Both the position numbers and the translations under genes were made by a program. From contig NZ_BAAADV010000003.1 of assembly GCF_039522665.1 (NCBI RefSeq), positions 124,001-188,000 on the forward strand: 64,000 nucleotides of DNA. The letters are read 5' to 3'. The notes under the pieces are model-generated. The model was not told the DNA's origin. It ran no database searches and saw nothing but the letters and a program-made list of their open reading frames with translations. This document shows, piece after piece, positions 1,881 through 48,368 of this stretch (its first letter is position 1; each line of letters begins with the position of its first letter). The DNA comes from Natronoarchaeum mannanilyticum. GTDB lineage: Archaea > Halobacteriota > Halobacteria > Halobacteriales > Natronoarchaeaceae.

Positions 1881-3098
1881 TCACGACTGCGGCGCGCGCC
1901 GCTTCAGATCCGCCACGATGTCGTCGAAGTCGCCGACGTCTTCGAGCGCGTCGAGGGCGGCGGTCGTCGGAACCTCCAGCGCGTACTCGTAGTAGTTGCC
2001 GCGAGCGCCGGCGTTGCGCTCGTGGCGTTCGAGGACGCTCTGCATCGTCAGGTCGCCGAGGTGGTCGTGGACCGATCGCTTGGTGATCGGATCGACGGCG
2101 AGGTGATCGCAGTACCGGCGGTACCGCGGGTACAGGTCGCGCATCCGAACCGGCGTCTCGTCGCGGGTGGCGTGAGCGGTGACCGCTAGCAACACGAGGT
2201 GGCCGTGGACCGTCAGCTGGCGCATCCCCTCCTGAACGCGTTCGGTTTCGATGACGTTCCGAGCCGTGCGGACGTGGGACTCCGCGATCGCCTCGGCGTC
2301 GTCGTTGCTCGCGAGCTCGCCCGCCCGAAGCAGTAGCGTGATCGCCTGTCGAGCGCTCCCGGTGTCCTGGGCGGCGATCGCGGCACAGAGCGGGATGACG
2401 TCCTGGTCGAGCGCGTCGTCGCGGATCGCCAGCTCGGCGCGCGACCGGAGGATCTGGCGCAGCTCGCCGGCGTCGTACGGCGAGAAGTGTAGCTCCTCCT
2501 CGCAGAGCGTGTCCTTGACTTTCGGCGAGAGCTGATCCCGAAAGGCGAAGTTGTTCGAGATGCCGATGAGGCCGGGCTTGACGGATTCGAGGTAGCCGTT
2601 CGATCGAGCGCGCGGGAGTTCGTAGAGGATGTCGTCGTCGGTGCCGATGTTGTCGATCTCGTCGAGGACGATCAGCACCGTCCCGCCGATCGACTCCAGT
2701 TCGTCGTACAGCATGTCGAAGACGGTCGCTTCGGGATACCCCGTCGTGCTGATCTGGCGCCCCGGACCGCGCAGCTCGTTGACGAGGTGGACCGCGATCT
2801 GGTACGACGAGTTGAGCGTGTTGCAGTTGACGTGGACGATCGAGAGGTCGACGTCGTCGTACTGCCGGCAGTCGGCCGCAAGCTCCGAAAGCAGGTACTC
2901 GGTCGCCGCGGTCTTGCCGACGCCGGTCTTGCCGTAGAGGAAGATGTTGTTGGGTTGCCAGCCGTCGACGACCGGCTGCAGGGCGTCGGTGTACGCGTCG
3001 AGTTCCTCGTCGCGAGCCTCCAGCGATTCCGGTTCGTAGTCGTCGCGGAGCGCGTCCTTCTCCTCGAAGATCGACCGCCGACGAGTGAACCGGCCCAT
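1881..3098 (-). CDS. Orc1/Cdc6-family replication initiator
   Basis: A 405-residue AAA+ initiator. It shows Walker A GKTGVGKT (residues 56-63), Walker B VLIVLDEID (141-149), a sensor-1-like GISNN (179-183) and a sensor-2-like GSAR (247-250). The C-terminal third (about 300-395) is the winged-helix DNA-binding domain expected in this family. Archaeal Orc1/Cdc6 proteins bind origin recognition boxes next to their own genes and load the MCM helicase. Repeats on both sides of this gene fit that arrangement. A TATA-like TTTAAATA lies about 65 nt upstream of the ATG on the minus strand. Haloarchaea encode many Orc paralogues and I cannot say which one this is. Confidence 0.95.
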   Translation of the reverse strand: MGRFTRRRSIFEEKDALRDDYEPESLEARDEELDAYTDALQPVVDGWQPNNIFLYGKTGVGKTAATEYLLSELAADCRQYDDVDLSIVHVNCNTLNSSYQIAVHLVNELRGPGRQISTTGYPEATVFDMLYDELESIGGTVLIVLDEIDNIGTDDDILYELPRARSNGYLESVKPGLIGISNNFAFRDQLSPKVKDTLCEEELHFSPYDAGELRQILRSRAELAIRDDALDQDVIPLCAAIAAQDTGSARQAITLLLRAGELASNDDAEAIAESHVRTARNVIETERVQEGMRQLTVHGHLVLLAVTAHATRDETPVRMRDLYPRYRRYCDHLAVDPITKRSVHDHLGDLTMQSVLERHERNAGARGNYYEYALEVPTTAALDALEDVGDFDDIVADLKRRAPQS

Positions 3099-3129
3099 GC
3101 GTCTAGCAGTCAGCCATCATCTGATAAAG

Positions 3130-3141
3130 CCACCGGTTCAA
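3130..3141 (+). repeat. ORB-like half site
   Basis: CCACCGGTTCAA matches the core of the 26-bp repeat but lacks the CA-rich flank. It lies 32 bp upstream of the orc start. Confidence 0.45.
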
Positions 3142-3172
3142 CTGGTTCGAGTCTAGCAACTATATTTAAAAC

Positions 3173-3193
3173 AACACACACCACCGATTCGAA
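3173..3193 (+). repeat. ORB-like repeat, variant
   Basis: AACACACACCACCGATTCGAA is a diverged copy (GATTCGAA for GGTTCAAG) in the same orientation as copies 1 and 2. It adjoins the AT-rich patch. Confidence 0.6.
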
Positions 3194-3511
3194 TGCGCGG
3201 CTGGCCAGTCGCCGCAGAATTCGGTCCGGGCGATTCGGTGTGCGTCGAACCGAACGCCCCGCGAGAGGGGTCGTTCGCCCCGCCTCGAAGACCTATCGTC
3301 GCCGCGGTCCACGGGTCCGCGACGAGGGAGACTTGTGTCCGTTGCCTCCTCCCCGTTTTCAATACGTCGAATTGCTTCCGCCGGGAGACTGTCCTCTGGA
3401 CGCCGATCGGTATCGACCTGGGCCTGATCCAGTAGCTCTCCATCGGAATCGAGACGTGCTGTCAGTGACTCAGTGCGTTCCCCGAGGTTCCGTACACTCG
3501 GTCCGCCACGC

Positions 3512-3539
3512 ACTCGAATCGGTGGTGTGGGGGGAGTCC
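3512..3539 (-). repeat. ORB-like repeat, inverted variant with G tract
   Basis: ACTCGAATCGGTGGTGTGG followed by GGGGAGTCC: the diverged core in inverted orientation with a G-rich extension. A G tract next to the core is common in haloarchaeal ORBs. Confidence 0.6.
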
Positions 3540-3543
3540 CGCA

Positions 3544-3563
3544 CACTCGAACCGATGGTGCCC
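3544..3563 (-). repeat. ORB-like repeat, weak inverted variant
   Basis: CACTCGAACCGATGGTGCCC is a weaker inverted match immediately after the previous copy. Confidence 0.45.
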
Positions 3564-3579
3564 CTTGTGACTCCGCCGC

Positions 3580-3600
3580 ACTTGAATCGGTGGTGTGTGA
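3580..3600 (-). repeat. ORB-like repeat, inverted
   Basis: ACTTGAATCGGTGGTGTGTGA with one mismatch in the core relative to the exact copies, in inverted orientation. Confidence 0.6.
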
Positions 3601-3763
3601 GAGCAGATACAGCAGCGATCGACCACGTGAAAGACGTGGCAACCTAGACGGAACGAACGACGGAACAGCGAATCGGAACCGGCGAGATCGCGGGTCGTTC
3701 GACGGAATCGGAAGCGGAGGCCAGTGTGACGCCAGACCACCCACCCCAGCAAAACGCCGCTGG

Positions 3764-3790
3764 ACTTGAACCGGTGGTGTGTGGGTGTCC
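3764..3790 (-). repeat. ORB-like repeat, exact inverted copy
   Basis: The reverse complement of 3764-3789 is identical over 26 bp to 1639-1664 and 1816-1841. It is the distal boundary of the repeat array. Confidence 0.7.
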
Positions 3791-3879
3791 TCGATGGCGG
3801 CGAGACGGCCGAGCGAACGGTGACGTCGAGACGAAAAGTAGCCTCGAATCGAACGGCGGGAATCGTGTCCTGCCGGCCG

Positions 3880-4797
3880 TTACTTGTACTGCTGACAGAC
3901 GCGCCGGATACCTTCCTCGAAGTCGATCTGTGGCTCCCAGCCGGTCGCCTCTCGCATCTTCGAGGGGTCCGCGCAGGTATCGTGGACGTACACGTCCTCG
4001 GGGATCGGGTTCTCGACGTACTCGGGCTCGACGTCCGTTCCCAGCTCGTCGTTGAGCAGATCGACGACCGTGTTGAAATCGTAGGCCTCGCCGGTGCCGA
4101 GATTATACACGCCGTCCAGTTCGTGCTCGGCCGCCAGCACCAGCCCGCGCACGATGTCCGAGACGTGCGTGAAATCCCGCGTCTGCGCGCCGTCGCCGTA
4201 GATTTTGGGCGCCTCGCCGTTGGCGATGTCGTCGGCGAACTGCGCGATCACGTTCGCGTACTCGCCCTTGTGTTCTTCCGCGCCGCCGTAGCCCTGATAC
4301 ACCGAGAAAAACCGCATCCCCGCTGCCGTCAGGTCGTAGTGGTTCGAGAAATACTCCGCGTAGCTCTCCCGGGCCATCTTCGAGGCCTCGTACCCCGTGT
4401 TGACCGTCACGTCCATGTCCTCGGGCGAGGGCTCGGTCCGGCTGCCGTAGATCGACGACGTCGAGGCGTACACGACCGTCTCGCAGCCGTCGGCTTTGGC
4501 CTGCTCGACGACGTTGACGAACCCTTCGACGTTGACGCGCGCGCCCGTCGTCGGGTCGTCCTCGTGCATCGCGTACGACGACAGCGCCGCCAGGTGGAAC
4601 ACCACGTCCACGTCCGTCGGCAGGTTACCGTCGAGCACGCTCGCTTCGCGGTACTCGACGGCATCGTCGAGGTTTTCCGGGGTTCCCAGATAGCCGTCAT
4701 CGACCACCACCACGTCGTTCTCGGCGGCCAGCTCGTTCGCCAGGTTCGACCCGATGAAGCCAGCGCCGCCCGTCACCAGAATCCGCTTGCCTTGCAT
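3880..4797 (-). CDS. NAD-dependent sugar-nucleotide epimerase/dehydratase
   Basis: Extended short-chain dehydrogenase of 305 residues, resembling UDP-glucose 4-epimerase. The N-terminal Rossmann motif is VTGGAGFIGS (residues 8-17). The catalytic Ser lies in YASTSSIYG (110-118) and the YxxxK pair is Y136/K140. HLAALSS near 68-74 is also typical. The start is set at MQGKRIL rather than six codons upstream because the Rossmann strand begins at once. It probably supplies sugars for cell-surface glycosylation. The exact substrate cannot be told, and no other glycan gene is nearby. Confidence 0.85.
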   Translation of the reverse strand: MQGKRILVTGGAGFIGSNLANELAAENDVVVVDDGYLGTPENLDDAVEYREASVLDGNLPTDVDVVFHLAALSSYAMHEDDPTTGARVNVEGFVNVVEQAKADGCETVVYASTSSIYGSRTEPSPEDMDVTVNTGYEASKMARESYAEYFSNHYDLTAAGMRFFSVYQGYGGAEEHKGEYANVIAQFADDIANGEAPKIYGDGAQTRDFTHVSDIVRGLVLAAEHELDGVYNLGTGEAYDFNTVVDLLNDELGTDVEPEYVENPIPEDVYVHDTCADPSKMREATGWEPQIDFEEGIRRVCQQYK

Positions 4798-42042: not shown

Positions 42043-42657
42043 CTATCGGCGCACGCCGGCTCGACCGCCCTCGACCGCCAGCTCGAACCCGGCGTCACGA
42101 AGCCACGCCGTCGCACGGCCGTCGCCGTGCAACAGCAACTCGACCAGATCCGCGCGCTCGTCGACGTCCGTCGACAGCCGGTGGGAGTCGACGACCGCGA
42201 CGTCGGCGTCGATCTCCGCGGCGATCCGCCGGTGGTCGCGGTAGGAGAGCCCGTGGTAGTCGACGCGAAACTCGGGGTGGCGGACGACGAGCGCGTTCGT
42301 CCCGCCGCCGCGTCCAGGTACGATCGCCACCTCGGCGTCGGCGTCGAACAGATCCGCGAGCGCGTCGCCGGTCGCGAGGCCCAGATCGGCCATCACGACG
42401 GCGGCGGGCGACTCGGGAGCGGCGTCTGCGAGAGCGTCGTTGACGGCGGGCGTCAGCGCGCGGTCGTCGACCCGGACGGGCGCGTCGACGTCGATCGGCG
42501 CCGTCGAGAGCACCGTCGGCTCGCCGCCGGCGGCGCGGACCGCCGCGAGGACGTCGTCGAGCATCGCGCGTGCGAGCGCCGAGCGCTCGCGCTCGTCGAG
42601 CAGGTCGGCGAGGCGAGTCTTCGGGCGCTCGGCGTCGAACGGGACGAGGACGCGCAT
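42043..42657 (-). CDS. cofC: 2-phospho-L-lactate guanylyltransferase
   Basis: A 204-residue nucleotidyltransferase that activates 2-phospholactate (or phosphoenolpyruvate) with GTP for F420 assembly. MRVLVPFDAERPKTRLADLL is the nucleotide-binding N-terminus and VVMADLGLATGDAL and VPGRGGGTNALVVRH are further signatures. With cofH and cofG it makes this a partial F420 locus; cofD and cofE are not in the window. Confidence 0.95.
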   Translation of the reverse strand: MRVLVPFDAERPKTRLADLLDERERSALARAMLDDVLAAVRAAGGEPTVLSTAPIDVDAPVRVDDRALTPAVNDALADAAPESPAAVVMADLGLATGDALADLFDADAEVAIVPGRGGGTNALVVRHPEFRVDYHGLSYRDHRRIAAEIDADVAVVDSHRLSTDVDERADLVELLLHGDGRATAWLRDAGFELAVEGGRAGVRR

Positions 42658-42696: not shown

Positions 42697-43500
42697 TTAC
42701 CCGAGCTTGTCGTAGTCGTCGCCCTGGCGCTGGTAGAGCAGGTAGCCGACGCCGGCGAGCACGAGCAGCGCGACCAGCCCGGCGCCGCCGTACAGCAGCA
42801 TGCTGCGCGTCTGGGCGCTGGACTGGGAGCTCTCGGCCTCGTCGGCGGCGTCCTGGGCGTTCTGGACGGCGCGGTCGAAGTCGCCGTTCTCGTAGAAGCC
42901 GACGGCGTTGTCGAGAGCGTCCTGGGCGGCCGACACGTCGGCGCCGTTGCTTTCGGCGTCCTCGATCGCGGCTTCGGCGTCCTCGATGGCGTTGCGAGCC
43001 TCCTTGCTATCGGCGGTGTAGTGGTGGGCGTCGTAGCTGTCGATGGTGGTGGTGCCGCCGCCCGATCGGACCTCGGTGAACTCGGTCACGGTGAACCGCT
43101 CCTCGGGCTCGTAGCTCCACTCGGCGACCTCGGGGACGGTCCCCATGACGGTCACTTCGATCTCGTCCATGTCATCGCTGGAGCTGACCGCGTAGTCGAA
43201 CGAGTCGCCGCCGAAGTTCTGCGAGTCGGCGATCTGGTCGCCGTCGACGCCGTAGGCCGTCACGGTCCAGCTGGCGTTGGTCAGGTTCGTCTGCCCCTCC
43301 AGCGTCCAGTCGGACGGCGTGTCGCCGGCGTACAGATCAGACAGCGTGTACGTTACTGAGACTTCCTCTCCGACTTCCGCTTCTTCGGGGACGCCGTCGG
43401 CGTCGACCGATGCGACAGCTGCCGCCGGGGAGACCGCGGCGACCGCGACCGCGAAAACGAGCAGCAGCGTTCCGAGCTTAGAATAGTGGTTCGAGTTCAT
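42697..43500 (-). CDS. Secreted membrane-anchored protein overlapping cetZ
   Basis: A 267-residue protein with a signal peptide (about 1-27, LGTLLLVFAVAVAAVSPAAA). An extracellular beta-rich domain follows (about 30-160), then a helical, coiled-coil-like segment of EDAEAAIEDAESN type (about 170-225), a transmembrane helix (about 235-255) and a short cytosolic tail YQRQGDDYDKLG. Its start lies inside the 3' end of cetZ (23-nt overlap), so translation is probably coupled. I know no named family. A role linking CetZ to the envelope is an inference from position. Confidence 0.75.
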   Translation of the reverse strand: MNSNHYSKLGTLLLVFAVAVAAVSPAAAVASVDADGVPEEAEVGEEVSVTYTLSDLYAGDTPSDWTLEGQTNLTNASWTVTAYGVDGDQIADSQNFGGDSFDYAVSSSDDMDEIEVTVMGTVPEVAEWSYEPEERFTVTEFTEVRSGGGTTTIDSYDAHHYTADSKEARNAIEDAEAAIEDAESNGADVSAAQDALDNAVGFYENGDFDRAVQNAQDAADEAESSQSSAQTRSMLLYGGAGLVALLVLAGVGYLLYQRQGDDYDKLG

Positions 43501-44656
43501 CGTCGTCATCTTCGACTAGCGTCTCTAAATTATCGTCGCTTTCCTGGCGAATCTCCTCGATGTTGTCCTGGGCCTCGATGGCAACCTGCTGGAGCTCCTT
43601 GATGCGGGGGACGTTGGTGACGCCCGACAGGAGGATCACGCTGGCCACGAAGTTCGAGTCGGGGACCGGGTAGTCGCCGCCCCGAACCTCCATGCTGCCG
43701 GTCTGCTCCTCGAGCCACTTCCGCCCGCGCTCTATCCCCTTCCGGTTGAGATGCTGGGGCGGACCGCTCATGACCAGCAGCGCGCGCTCGGCGCCGTCGA
43801 TCTCGCAGGGCAGCGTGAGCCGGCCGAGCGCCGCCTTCCGGACGAGACTGGTGATCCGGTTGGTCGTGTGCGCCGTGTCGACCTGGTCGTCCTCGCCGCC
43901 GGTGAAGCGCGAGAGCAGACCGCTGTCGTCGCCGCTGTTCTCGACTTCCTCGCGAGCGTAGCCGACCGTCGAGACGCCGCCGCCCGACAGCGTGTTGATG
44001 ATCTCGCTGGAGTCGACGACGCTTTCCGCGACCTCGTCGCCCTGGTTGATCTCGCCGGCGCCGAAGAGGATGCCGAAGCGCTTGACGATCTCGTCGTTGA
44101 TCTCCTCGTAGCCGCTCTCGACGGACTCGCCGGACTGTCGCCAGGAGTCGTTGTCGAACACGAGCAGATTGTCGACCTCCCGGACGAACGTCTGGAAGGA
44201 GCGAGCCGCGTTGAGCGTGTAGATCCCGCCCTCGTCGCTGCCGGGCAGCACGCCCAGCCCGTAGACGGGTTCGGTGTAGATCCGCTTGAGATGCTTCGCG
44301 ATGACGGGGGCGCCGCCGCTGCCGGTGCCGCCGCCCATCCCCGCGACGATCAGGAAGGCGTCGACCTCGTGGACCGGGATCCCGTCGATGGCACCCTGGA
44401 CTTCGTCGATGTCCTCCTCCGCGATCTCGGCGCCGAGCTCGTTGTCGGCGCCGACGCCGTGTCCCTTGACGCGGGACTGTCCGATCAGGACTCGATTTTC
44501 CTGGGGAACTTTCTCCAGCCCCATCAGGTCCGCCTTGGCGGTATTAACCGCCACCGCGGACCGGACGATCCCGCTGTGGGTGCGCTCGTCGTACTCCAAG
44601 AATTTGTCGACGATTTTCCCACCCGCCTGTCCGAAGCCGATCATCGCCAGTTTCAT
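43478..44656 (-). CDS. cetZ: CetZ tubulin-like cell-shape protein
   Basis: A 392-residue tubulin/FtsZ-superfamily GTPase. The N-terminus MKLAMIGFGQAGGKIVDKF is typical of CetZ1. The nucleotide signature is GGGTGSG (108-114), with GIYTLNAARSFQTFV and GEINQGDEVAESVVD (T7-like catalytic loop). CetZ1 controls rod formation and motility in Haloferax. The acidic C-terminus DDDDELEPLF is conserved in the group. An ATG nine codons upstream (44683) fits a leaderless start from the TATA at 44701-44710 and cannot be excluded. Confidence 0.9.
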   Translation of the reverse strand: MKLAMIGFGQAGGKIVDKFLEYDERTHSGIVRSAVAVNTAKADLMGLEKVPQENRVLIGQSRVKGHGVGADNELGAEIAEEDIDEVQGAIDGIPVHEVDAFLIVAGMGGGTGSGGAPVIAKHLKRIYTEPVYGLGVLPGSDEGGIYTLNAARSFQTFVREVDNLLVFDNDSWRQSGESVESGYEEINDEIVKRFGILFGAGEINQGDEVAESVVDSSEIINTLSGGGVSTVGYAREEVENSGDDSGLLSRFTGGEDDQVDTAHTTNRITSLVRKAALGRLTLPCEIDGAERALLVMSGPPQHLNRKGIERGRKWLEEQTGSMEVRGGDYPVPDSNFVASVILLSGVTNVPRIKELQQVAIEAQDNIEEIRQESDDNLETLVEDDDDELEPLF

Positions 44657-44937: not shown

Positions 44938-45825
44938 CTATCCCGACAGGCCGAGATACTCCGAGAGCGTCGTGAGATCGTCCGGGTCGACGTCGAACGC
45001 CGTAACATCGTTCTCGACGACCGTGTTGTCGATCCGCAGCGACCTGGCCTGGTCCGGTCCCATCGGGACGAACGGCAGCGGGCCGGCAGCGGTCAGCCCG
45101 ATCTTGGCGAGCGCCATCGGCACCGGGAGGACGCGCACCGACTTGCCCTCCGCGCGGTAGGCGAGCCGGGTCACGTCCGCCAACGTCAGCACCTCGGGGC
45201 CGCCGATCTCGTAGACCTCGCCGGCCCGATCCTCGTCGATCGCGCAGTCGGCCAGCATCGGCGCGAGGTCGCCGACCCAGATCGGCTGGAACCGCGTCTT
45301 CCCGCCGCCCGGTAGTCCGGTGACGTACGGCGTCGTCAACATTTTCGTGAACCCGACGAACTCGCCGCCCTCGCCGAACACGACCGACGGCCGGACGATC
45401 ACCCAGTCCAGCGGGGCGTCCCGGACGACCTGCTCGGCCTGCCCTTTCGTCCGGAGGTAGGCGGTCGAGCCGTCCGGATCGGCGCCGAGCGCGCTCATCT
45501 GGACCACCCGGTCGACGCCGTGTTCCTCCGCGGCGTCGACGACGTTCTCGGTGCCGCCGAGGTGCACTTTCTCGTGGCCCGCGCCGCCGCGGGGCTTGAA
45601 CAGCGGCGACAGCGCGACCAGGTTGACGACCGTATCCTGCCCCTCGAAGGCGCCCTCGATCGAGTCGTAGGCCGTCACGTCGCCGGCGACCGAGTCGACG
45701 CCGTCGGGCAGCTCGGCGTCGCCGGGATCCCGCGAGAGCGCCGTGACGTCGTGTCCGCGGTCGTGCAGTTCGACGCAGAGATTCTGGCCGATGAAGCCCG
45801 TCCCGCCGACGACGAGAACGTTCAT
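44938..45825 (-). CDS. NDUFA9-like NAD(P)-binding protein
   Basis: A 295-residue atypical short-chain dehydrogenase. The Rossmann motif is VLVVGGTGFIGQNLC at the N-terminus. RVVQMSALGADPDGSTAYLR and WVIVRPSVVFGEGGEF are typical of the complex I NDUFA9-like group, which usually has no demonstrated reaction. TATA-like CTTTATGCTC lies about 27 nt upstream on the minus strand. Confidence 0.85.
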   Translation of the reverse strand: MNVLVVGGTGFIGQNLCVELHDRGHDVTALSRDPGDAELPDGVDSVAGDVTAYDSIEGAFEGQDTVVNLVALSPLFKPRGGAGHEKVHLGGTENVVDAAEEHGVDRVVQMSALGADPDGSTAYLRTKGQAEQVVRDAPLDWVIVRPSVVFGEGGEFVGFTKMLTTPYVTGLPGGGKTRFQPIWVGDLAPMLADCAIDEDRAGEVYEIGGPEVLTLADVTRLAYRAEGKSVRVLPVPMALAKIGLTAAGPLPFVPMGPDQARSLRIDNTVVENDVTAFDVDPDDLTTLSEYLGLSG

Positions 45826-46863: not shown

Positions 46864-47030
46864 CGTGACCGGGGAGCTACGTTCCCCAATAATTACGACA
46901 TATATCGTGCGCGATGAACGTTTGATGAAAAATTTGTTCGCAACTTTTACTTTCCTATTGATAGAAGTTGCCGGTAAGAGACCGTCTGGTGCAGGTGACG
47001 AGATTACCCGCCAGTCGAGTACGATCATCC
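46864..47030. other. AT-rich promoter region
   Basis: A 167-bp region containing AT-rich patches (CATATATCGTG near 46898-46908, AAAAATTTG near 46926-46934), probably promoter elements of the next gene. No gene seen. Confidence 0.45.
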
Positions 47031-48368
47031 ATGGATTCGAGAGACGACACGAACGATACCGAACCGAGCGCGAACGACGCCGAAGAGGACCTGCCGACCG
47101 AAGTACCGGAAGACTCGGTGCTGTATAACGGGGACGAAGACGACGAGAACGACGCCGACGACTCCGGCGACGACTCCGGCAACGACTCGTCGATCAGCCG
47201 CCGCGCGGCGCTGGGCGTGCTTGGCGTCGGCGGCGTCGCCGGCGCCGGCGCGCTGGCGTTCGGCGGGGTCCTCGGCGGTGGTTCGGGCGCCGACGACGGC
47301 TCCGACGATCCCGACAGTTCGACGGCCACATCCGGTGACGAAGGCTCCGACGACGAGGACGCCGGCGGCGAAGCGACCGAGGGCCCCGACCCCGCGGTGT
47401 CGTTCGACAATCAGGCGTTTCAGGGCAACGGCGTGAACGTCAGCGCGACGACGCCCGGCGAGTACGCGCTCCTCGTTACCTACGGCGCCGACGGGGACAG
47501 CGTCGTGGCGGGGACCGCGGACGCGACCGATCTCGACGACGAGGGCGTCGCCGTCCGGTTCCAGAATGACGGCGGCGTCCCCGGCACTCACACGGCTCAC
47601 CTCCTCGAAGGCGACGCCGGCGGGTACGAGGGCGGCGACGCGCTCACCGCGGAGACGATCGGCAACGTCGCGGTCGCCGACACCGCGTTCGTCTCCGGCG
47701 AGGGCGACGACGCCGAGACCGAGGTCGGGTTCGCCGATCAGGCGCTCGGCAGCGGCAGCGGCGTCGAGATGGAGTTCACCACCCCCGACGGCCACTTCGT
47801 CATCCTGACCTACGACCGGGACGGCGTGCCCGTCGTCGCCGGCGCCGACGACGTCAGCGACCTCGACGGCGAGACGCGCGTCGTCGACGTCGTGGATCGG
47901 GACGGCGTCCCCGGCGAGCATACGGCCCACGTCCTCGCGAACGCGGACGGCAGCCAGTTCTACGTGCCCGGGGACGCGCTCTCGGACGCCACCGCGGACG
48001 TGGTGACCGCCTCCGCGACGGCGACCGTCTCCGGGGCCGACAACCCCGAGGCGTCCGTCTCGTTCGAGGACCAGGCGCTCGAGGAGGGGACGGTGACGCT
48101 GACGGCGACCGCGCCGGCGAAACACTTCGTGCTCGTCACGTACCGCAGCGGCGACGACCGCATCGTCGCGGGCGCCGAGGACGTGAGCGGACTCGACGGC
48201 GAGTCGATCACGTTCGACCTCCCGGACGACGGCGGTGTCGGCGGTCTCCACACCGCGTACATCATCTCCGAGGATGGCGGCAGCAAGCGGTACGCGGCCG
48301 GCGACGTGGCCTCCCAGTCGACGATCGGCGCCGCCAAAGTGGCCTCGACCGCGACCGTCAGCGAGTAA
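47031..48368 (+). CDS. Tat-exported or anchored protein with three DUF7282-type repeats
   Basis: A 445-residue protein. The first 55 residues are a very acidic tail. A twin-arginine segment SISRRAALGVLGVGGVAGAG starts at 54, with RR at 57-58, followed by a Gly/Ser/Asp-rich spacer. Three repeats of about 100 residues follow, each opening with SFDNQAFQ, GFADQALGS or SFEDQALEE and containing VIVTYDRDG/VAGADDVSDLDG-like and GxHTAHVL motifs. This repeat resembles the haloarchaeal DUF7282 beta domain. The twin-arginine segment set far behind the start is odd and may act as a membrane anchor. Function unknown. Confidence 0.8.
   Translation: MDSRDDTNDTEPSANDAEEDLPTEVPEDSVLYNGDEDDENDADDSGDDSGNDSSISRRAALGVLGVGGVAGAGALAFGGVLGGGSGADDGSDDPDSSTATSGDEGSDDEDAGGEATEGPDPAVSFDNQAFQGNGVNVSATTPGEYALLVTYGADGDSVVAGTADATDLDDEGVAVRFQNDGGVPGTHTAHLLEGDAGGYEGGDALTAETIGNVAVADTAFVSGEGDDAETEVGFADQALGSGSGVEMEFTTPDGHFVILTYDRDGVPVVAGADDVSDLDGETRVVDVVDRDGVPGEHTAHVLANADGSQFYVPGDALSDATADVVTASATATVSGADNPEASVSFEDQALEEGTVTLTATAPAKHFVLVTYRSGDDRIVAGAEDVSGLDGESITFDLPDDGGVGGLHTAYIISEDGGSKRYAAGDVASQSTIGAAKVASTATVSE

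Follow-up and report, generated by a model that had tools for sequence, protein, structure and literature searches.

A predicted membrane protein encoded in overlap with cetZ1 as a candidate envelope partner of the archaeal tubulin CetZ1

The cetZ1 locus and its overlapping gene

The window (the whole stretch of DNA that was analysed, 64,000 nucleotides from Natronoarchaeum mannanilyticum) carries on its reverse strand cetZ1 (43478..44656), which encodes a CetZ tubulin-superfamily GTPase of 392 aa with the C-terminus DELEPLF. The product matches the Pfam families PF21011 (CetZ_C, E 1.3e-83) and PF00091 (E 1.8e-33), and its nearest solved structure, matched over the full length, is 4b46 (E 5e-216), i.e. 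CetZ1 of H. volcanii (PMC9856176). With 720 bits against 4b46 compared to 315 bits against 4b45, the protein is nearer to H. volcanii CetZ1 than to CetZ2. A nolA-like gene for an NAD-dependent epimerase is located upstream (44938..45825, reverse strand; PF13460, E 4e-29; PF01370, E 5e-20), and cofC (42043..42657, reverse strand; PF01983, E 5e-37) follows as the next gene downstream of the overlapping gene described below; an amidase gene and a radical-SAM gene are found downstream as well. The window CetZ thus fulfils the criteria of the CetZ1 subfamily, which are a CetZ_C domain, a preference for CetZ1 over CetZ2, and nolA immediately upstream with F420 genes nearby. The locus also matches the published cetZ1 neighbourhood, for which Brown and Duggin (2023, PMC9856176) describe nolA upstream and genes for CofC and thymidylate kinase close by. 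The sections of that paper which bear on the neighbourhood name no membrane protein beside cetZ1, and it is possible that the gene described here is among the grey uncharacterised genes in its Figure 5. Elsewhere in the window, a 466-aa open reading frame on the forward strand (46968-48368) seems, by eye, to contain repeats of one domain.

Between cetZ1 and cofC, on the same strand, lies a gene (42697..43500), identified by its open reading frame and its homologues, for a CetZ1-linked single-pass membrane protein of 267 aa, which we refer to as the partner. Its ATG at 43500 is located 23 nt inside cetZ1 (overlap 43478..43500), as the initial annotation had stated, and an alternative in-frame ATG at 43509 would give a protein of 270 aa and an overlap of 32 nt. 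Both candidate start codons lie out of frame within the part of cetZ1 that encodes the CetZ tail (DDDDELEPLF).

The partner contains two hydrophobic segments (residues 12-30 and 234-252). The first of these indicates a signal peptide of about residues 1-28 (43417..43500, reverse strand, like all features of the partner), for which no cleavage site was predicted by a program; A28 is identical across 49 aligned homologues. It is followed by a beta-sandwich domain (residues 30-160, 43021..43413), which is extramembrane if this topology holds, a helical region (residues 163-233, 42802..43014), a membrane helix of about residues 234-254 at the second hydropathy peak (42739..42801), and a cytosolic tail (residues 256-267, YQRQGDDYDKLG, 42700..42735), which stands out by a terminal pattern shared among CetZ1-adjacent homologues. 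We conclude that the partner is likely built of a signal peptide, an ectodomain, one membrane helix and a cytosolic tail, a topology that is inferred from sequence and not measured.

The AlphaFold2 model, which is based on only two sequences (mean pLDDT 66, pTM 0.47), has nine strands between residues 31 and 160, followed by helices at residues 163-184, 190-204 and 208-258, the last of which continues into or through the membrane segment. Sequence and model therefore uphold most of the build that had been proposed initially, namely the signal peptide, the extracellular beta domain, the single membrane helix and the cytosolic tail of 12 residues. The proposed coiled-coil stalk has to be corrected, since two short helices and one long helix running into the membrane describe a short bundle and not a proven coiled coil. 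In the PDB, pilins and adhesins contain Ig-like domains with the same sandwich arrangement (VIA Z up to 9.1); this resemblance is generic, with 2-15% identity, and no function follows from it. The top Foldseek match, Spo0M (E 1.6e-5), is generic as well, with TM-scores of about 0.3. No Pfam or NCBIfam match above cut-off was obtained for the window partner, a DUF4398 match was found in 11 of the 49 homologues (best E 1.7e-6), and a PDB sequence search gave nothing better than E 0.024. A mobile or viral origin was likewise discarded, as there was no phage match at E<=0.01 and the only plasmid match was the cetZ-partner pair itself.

Across the 49 partners, the tail carries more information per column (2.81 bits) than the membrane helix (2.27), the helical region (2.14), the beta domain (2.05) and the signal-peptide core (1.84). 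Only the overlap-encoded N-terminus exceeds it (3.23 bits per column), which we attribute to double coding.

Distribution of the pair and its overlapping start codon

Partner homologues are present in 167 of 293 genomes of the order Halobacteriales, a count that was equal in a single-sequence and a profile search, and CetZ1, for which we required E<=1e-150 against the window CetZ, occurs in 260. We read the gene behind cetZ in 88 CetZ1 loci, which cover all 78 genera with a match by at least one locus each; some of the sampled CetZs are divergent (62% identity in G043, 75% in G060) and perhaps not orthologous CetZ1. The partner adjoins cetZ1 in 50 of these loci (43 of 78 genera) and is missing from the other 38 (35 genera), including 21 of the 23 genera of family f7, and none of the 38 genomes appeared among the partner matches in the profile search of the order. 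No genus showed both states among the sampled loci, although a single genome represents most of the genera. Where at least 8 kb were available, cofC was located within 2 kb downstream in all loci with the partner (47/47) and in all loci without it (26/26). Since cofC is constant in both states, the partner gene comes and goes inside a fixed frame.

Three variants were observed among the partner-bearing loci. In L165 (G043, genus g29) the CetZ is only about 62% identical and has lost DELEPLF, and the partner starts at -11 and ends in PSRLR. The partner of L218 (G117) is split in two frames, which may reflect a pseudogene or a sequencing error. The partners of L159 and L160 (G026 and G038, genus g24) are larger, with 331-336 aa and the tail RDPLG.

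The position of the start codon is highly constrained. Relative to the end of cetZ1, the partner starts at -23 in 34 of the 50 loci and at -32 in 11, so that 45 of 50 use exactly one of these two positions; -29, -11, +11 and +91 occur once each, and for the last of these an inner ATG gives the better reading. The one remaining locus has a broken gene whose first fragment begins at -23. An ATG at -23 or -32 is present in 47 of the 50 loci with the partner compared to 1 of the 38 without it. This ATG arises from a synonymous Asp codon of cetZ1: leaving out loci with another residue at the respective position, Asp is encoded by GAT at the 7th codon from the end in 36/49 loci with and 1/34 without the partner, and at the 10th codon in 26/48 and 0/37, respectively. 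Elsewhere in cetZ1, the share of GAT among Asp codons is 100/1190 (8.4%) in partner-bearing loci and 160/913 (17.5%) in the others. The CetZ tail itself, approximately DEL[ED][PS]LF, is kept with minor changes in both states (G043 excepted), which means that the codon difference between them is largely synonymous.

Families f4, f5 and f7 each hold loci with and without the partner, and inside these families the ATG tracks the state of the partner with the exception of G237, G043 and G201. In G201 the partner starts at -29; in G060 the ATG is present though the partner was read from +11. The locus of G237 (L189, genus g76) has retained the overlapping ATG without a partner, which could represent a recent loss. 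Parsimony on a quick tree of the 88 rows gave six changes of partner presence, and only one independent pair for the codon link lies on well supported branches (six on all branches), so that a phylogenetic correction is underpowered. Because shared ancestry inflates such tests, Fisher values for the codon link do not represent independent trials.

A chance overlap was rejected, since both the start position and the codon are conserved. The overlap likely couples the translation of cetZ1 and the partner gene, and the earlier suggestion that the two products are made in step is plausible in this respect; however, coupling is inferred from the overlap, without translation data. One or two synonymous changes in cetZ1 would abolish the partner start and leave CetZ1 untouched, and a cetZ1 deletion which covers the last 11 codons also removes the partner start codon.

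The pair is not restricted to haloarchaea. Across 392 genomes of the phylum, a profile of 49 partners (the broken gene of L218 excluded) had matches in 120, of which 41 belong to the order and 79 do not. From these 79 we chose by eye 20 stronger and 20 weaker matches, one per genome, and 34 of these 40 are located directly behind a CetZ. In the stronger set this applies to 19 of 20, at a gap of -32 to +23 from a CetZ-type tubulin gene, with the twentieth at a contig edge; in the weaker set it applies to 15 of 20, and no CetZ lies inside the stretch in the other five (L282, L284, L286, L289 and L290). The genes read beside the pair outside haloarchaea are not nolA or cofC.

In the reverse direction, we selected 60 CetZ loci by CetZ_C score alone, 30 from each of two further classes. 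This sample comprises one CetZ per genome from the best-scoring genomes only, the classes were picked for having partner matches, and the 40-match set shares 13 genomes with it. An ORF with a signal peptide is located at -4 to +35 nt behind the CetZ in 55 of the 60 loci, and 53 of these ORFs show a C-terminal helix, with the remaining two (L296, L307) running off the contig first. The five misses comprise three contig ends (L313, L320, L326) and two loci without such an ORF (L293, L346). CetZ_C is present in 229 of 232 genomes of the class of G547, mostly in two copies per genome, and in 41 of 58 genomes of the second class.

The pair also occurs as a unit on plasmid NZ_CP100463.1 of Salinigranum marinum, where a CetZ gene (75% identity) overlaps by 32 nt a partner gene with the tail ETYDRLG; neither nolA nor cofC is annotated in the 16.5 kb around it. 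Conversely, seven other CetZ and two FtsZ loci show no such ORF within -60 to +120 nt of the gene, and CetZ1 locus L225, which was run alongside, does show it. These nine loci stem from four genomes (that of the window and three of family f6), and three of them offer less than 1 kb beyond the gene. The initial annotation would have been refuted by a pair unique to this genome; instead, the pair extends across Halobacteriales and into other classes of the phylum, a plasmid carries it as a unit, and its overlapping start is nearly confined to partner-bearing loci.

The cytosolic tail and partners without CetZ

The 12-residue tail of the window partner ends in YDKLG. Haloarchaeal partners mostly end in YDKLG or YDKLR, and elsewhere WDELG, WDKLG or RKRGIY-like ends are found. 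In the class of G547 all tails read WDELG where the end of the ORF was available; in the class of G405 most are RKRGIY/GVY or near variants, and the others WDKLG, DKLG plus one or two residues, or PPLG. We summarized the haloarchaeal ends by a pattern which was set post hoc from the tails, [KREPQ]L followed by at most one residue at the C-terminus. It fits 48 of the 49 CetZ1-adjacent haloarchaeal partners and none of the five haloarchaeal orphans, i.e. partners without a CetZ beside them; as background, 93 of the 548 acidic ORFs of these loci fit it, most of those partners being included in this count. Of the stronger remote loci only 8 of 20 fit this strict pattern, because one group ends in RKRGIY/GVY.

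Four of the five orphans belong to family f6, in which a CetZ_C match is missing from nine genomes of genera g8 and g51. Four of these nine (G061, G077, G092 and G126) retain the partner, each directly upstream of cofC, with the tails QWSDR, WRDR (two genomes) and SDRFG. In G005 and G034 a nolA-like ORF is directly followed by cofC, with cetZ and partner both gone, and in G053, G069 and G085 the upstream side was not covered. The fifth orphan is a second partner copy in G201, which ends in PSEHR and has no CetZ in 12.7 kb. Genomes G022 and G115 of the same family f6 (genus g22), in which CetZ1 is present, retain the tail TYDKLR. As the tail losses amount to about two independent events, the link between tail and CetZ is suggestive and no proof. 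A remote partner-like ORF (L289, G384), which ends in KWDELR and has no CetZ in the roughly 5 kb to each side, hints in the opposite direction, since this orphan has kept its tail.

Candidate roles of the partner

The overlapping genes and their position side by side in many groups of the phylum make the partner a strong candidate for a tie between CetZ and the envelope, which had already been proposed for this gene and is supported as the best reading, without binding or phenotype data. We slightly favour a membrane adaptor dedicated to CetZ1, which would reach CetZ1 with its tail and the envelope with its ectodomain. In this view, cetZ1 and the overlapping gene would form an old two-gene module, and production of the partner would be coupled to that of CetZ1 by the overlap. 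The partner would be exported, with the beta-sandwich and the helical region outside, one helix as anchor and the short C-terminal tail on the cytosolic side. With this tail it would likely contact CetZ1 filaments or a CetZ1-associated factor, and the ectodomain would likely touch the S-layer or other envelope components. The partner might thereby hold CetZ1 at the envelope or determine its position there, much as FtsA, ZipA or SepF do for FtsZ. The sequences themselves establish the adjacency and overlap, a start codon that follows the partner, the pair on a plasmid, its absence from the other CetZ and FtsZ loci examined and the missing tail pattern in haloarchaeal orphans, together with a likely topology. 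Binding of CetZ1, its anchoring and a role in shape or motility are all inferred from sequence, as is the translational coupling. CetZ1 itself is located along the cell periphery (PMC12186497), and the way in which CetZs act on cell shape and motility is not understood (PMC9856176).

Several observations limit this reading. CetZ1 occurs without the partner in 38 of the 88 loci, so the partner is dispensable in many lineages, which counts against the adaptor role. Furthermore, CetZs are also prominent in vesicles of Hrr. lacusprofundi (PMC10927574); if its genus corresponds to the partner-less genus g7, a match that is not established, association with the envelope would be independent of the partner. 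The C-terminal motif of CetZ can be excluded as a partner-specific docking site, since it is similar with and without the partner and resembles that of other CetZs. This too counts against the adaptor, as do the different tail of one remote group and the tail that the orphan L289 has kept.

The partner differs in build from SepF, ZipA and FtsA. SepF, the archaeal membrane anchor of FtsZ (PMC8178401), would share the role of tying a tubulin-superfamily filament to the membrane. SepF is a cytosolic protein with an amphipathic helix, whereas the partner appears exported and membrane-spanning with a folded ectodomain, and no Pfam match to the SepF domain was found in the window partner or the homologue set, which argues against a SepF-type anchor. 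In bacteria, ZipA and FtsA are membrane partners that bind FtsZ; ZipA has its helix at the N-terminus and binds FtsZ through a cytosolic domain, and FtsA is actin-like. In contrast, the cytosolic part of the partner comprises only about 12 residues, and it has no Pfam match to an actin-like or ZipA FtsZ-binding domain, so it is not of the FtsA or ZipA type. If the role holds, the partner represents a new family in the known class of membrane partners of tubulin-family filaments.

Among the alternatives, it remains possible that the partner acts in the CetZ1 pathway without being an anchor, either as an envelope sensor or regulator, or as a cargo positioned by CetZ1, in which case the tail might relay a state either to CetZ1 itself or to some third protein. 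The Ig-like ectodomain is typical of surface binding modules, and 38 of the 88 loci have CetZ1 but no partner, which would be more usual if the partner were a modulator and not the sole anchor. The absence of any signalling domain (Pfam, NCBIfam) and the short cytosolic part speak against this alternative but do not exclude it.

It is unlikely that the partner is a functionally independent envelope protein that merely shares the cetZ1 transcript, adjacency and overlap being an operon habit. In favour of this explanation, the gene survives upstream of cofC in the four f6 genomes without CetZ_C, which implies that it can be kept without CetZ. However, adjacency holds outside haloarchaea, where nolA and cofC were not the neighbours read, the plasmid carries the pair without either gene annotated, and the tail pattern is missing from the haloarchaeal orphans. 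An archaeosortase-type surface protein, in which the C-terminal helix and tail would be a sorting signal instead of an interaction tail, is very unlikely: a membrane helix with a short C-terminal tail does resemble such signals, but no NCBIfam C-terminal sorting model matches at E<=1, conservation falls on the very last residues of the protein, acidic and aromatic ones among them, and there is no PGF motif before the helix, so that the criteria for PGF-CTERM substrates are not met.

Returning to the adaptor reading, a bolder version would regard the pair as an undescribed phylum-wide two-component system that connects CetZ1 across the membrane with the outer cell surface; here we see as much reason to doubt as to accept. 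The layout would then be integrin-like, with an Ig-like ectodomain, one helix and a short conserved tail serving an archaeal tubulin, a comparison that could equally well fail or hold. If true, a dedicated transmembrane partner would link an archaeal tubulin to the cell surface; to our knowledge, no FtsZ anchor reaches the cell surface with a folded ectodomain.

The literature searched, which covered few subscription papers and neither bioRxiv nor supplements, contains no description of the partner and names no membrane partner of CetZ1. In H. volcanii, HVO_2202 is cofC (PMC8305020) and HVO_2204 is CetZ1 (PMC10927574), and HVO_2203 should therefore, judged by its locus number alone, be the partner; it is not mentioned in the main text of a proteomics study of cell shape (PMC10869688). 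Genome G241 (genus g50), whose CetZ1 is 96.5% identical to 4b46, carries the partner at -32 with the tail TYDKLG.

Outside haloarchaea, two further genes recur immediately before cetZ within the stronger remote set, in 15 and 14 of the 20 loci by reading; in L253 they are located at 2960-3874 and 3871-4716, and homologues occur in other loci among L254-L272. One encodes a protein of about 300 aa without a Pfam match, the other a protein of 210-290 aa with a weak PRC-barrel match, and both may possibly be part of the CetZ module there.
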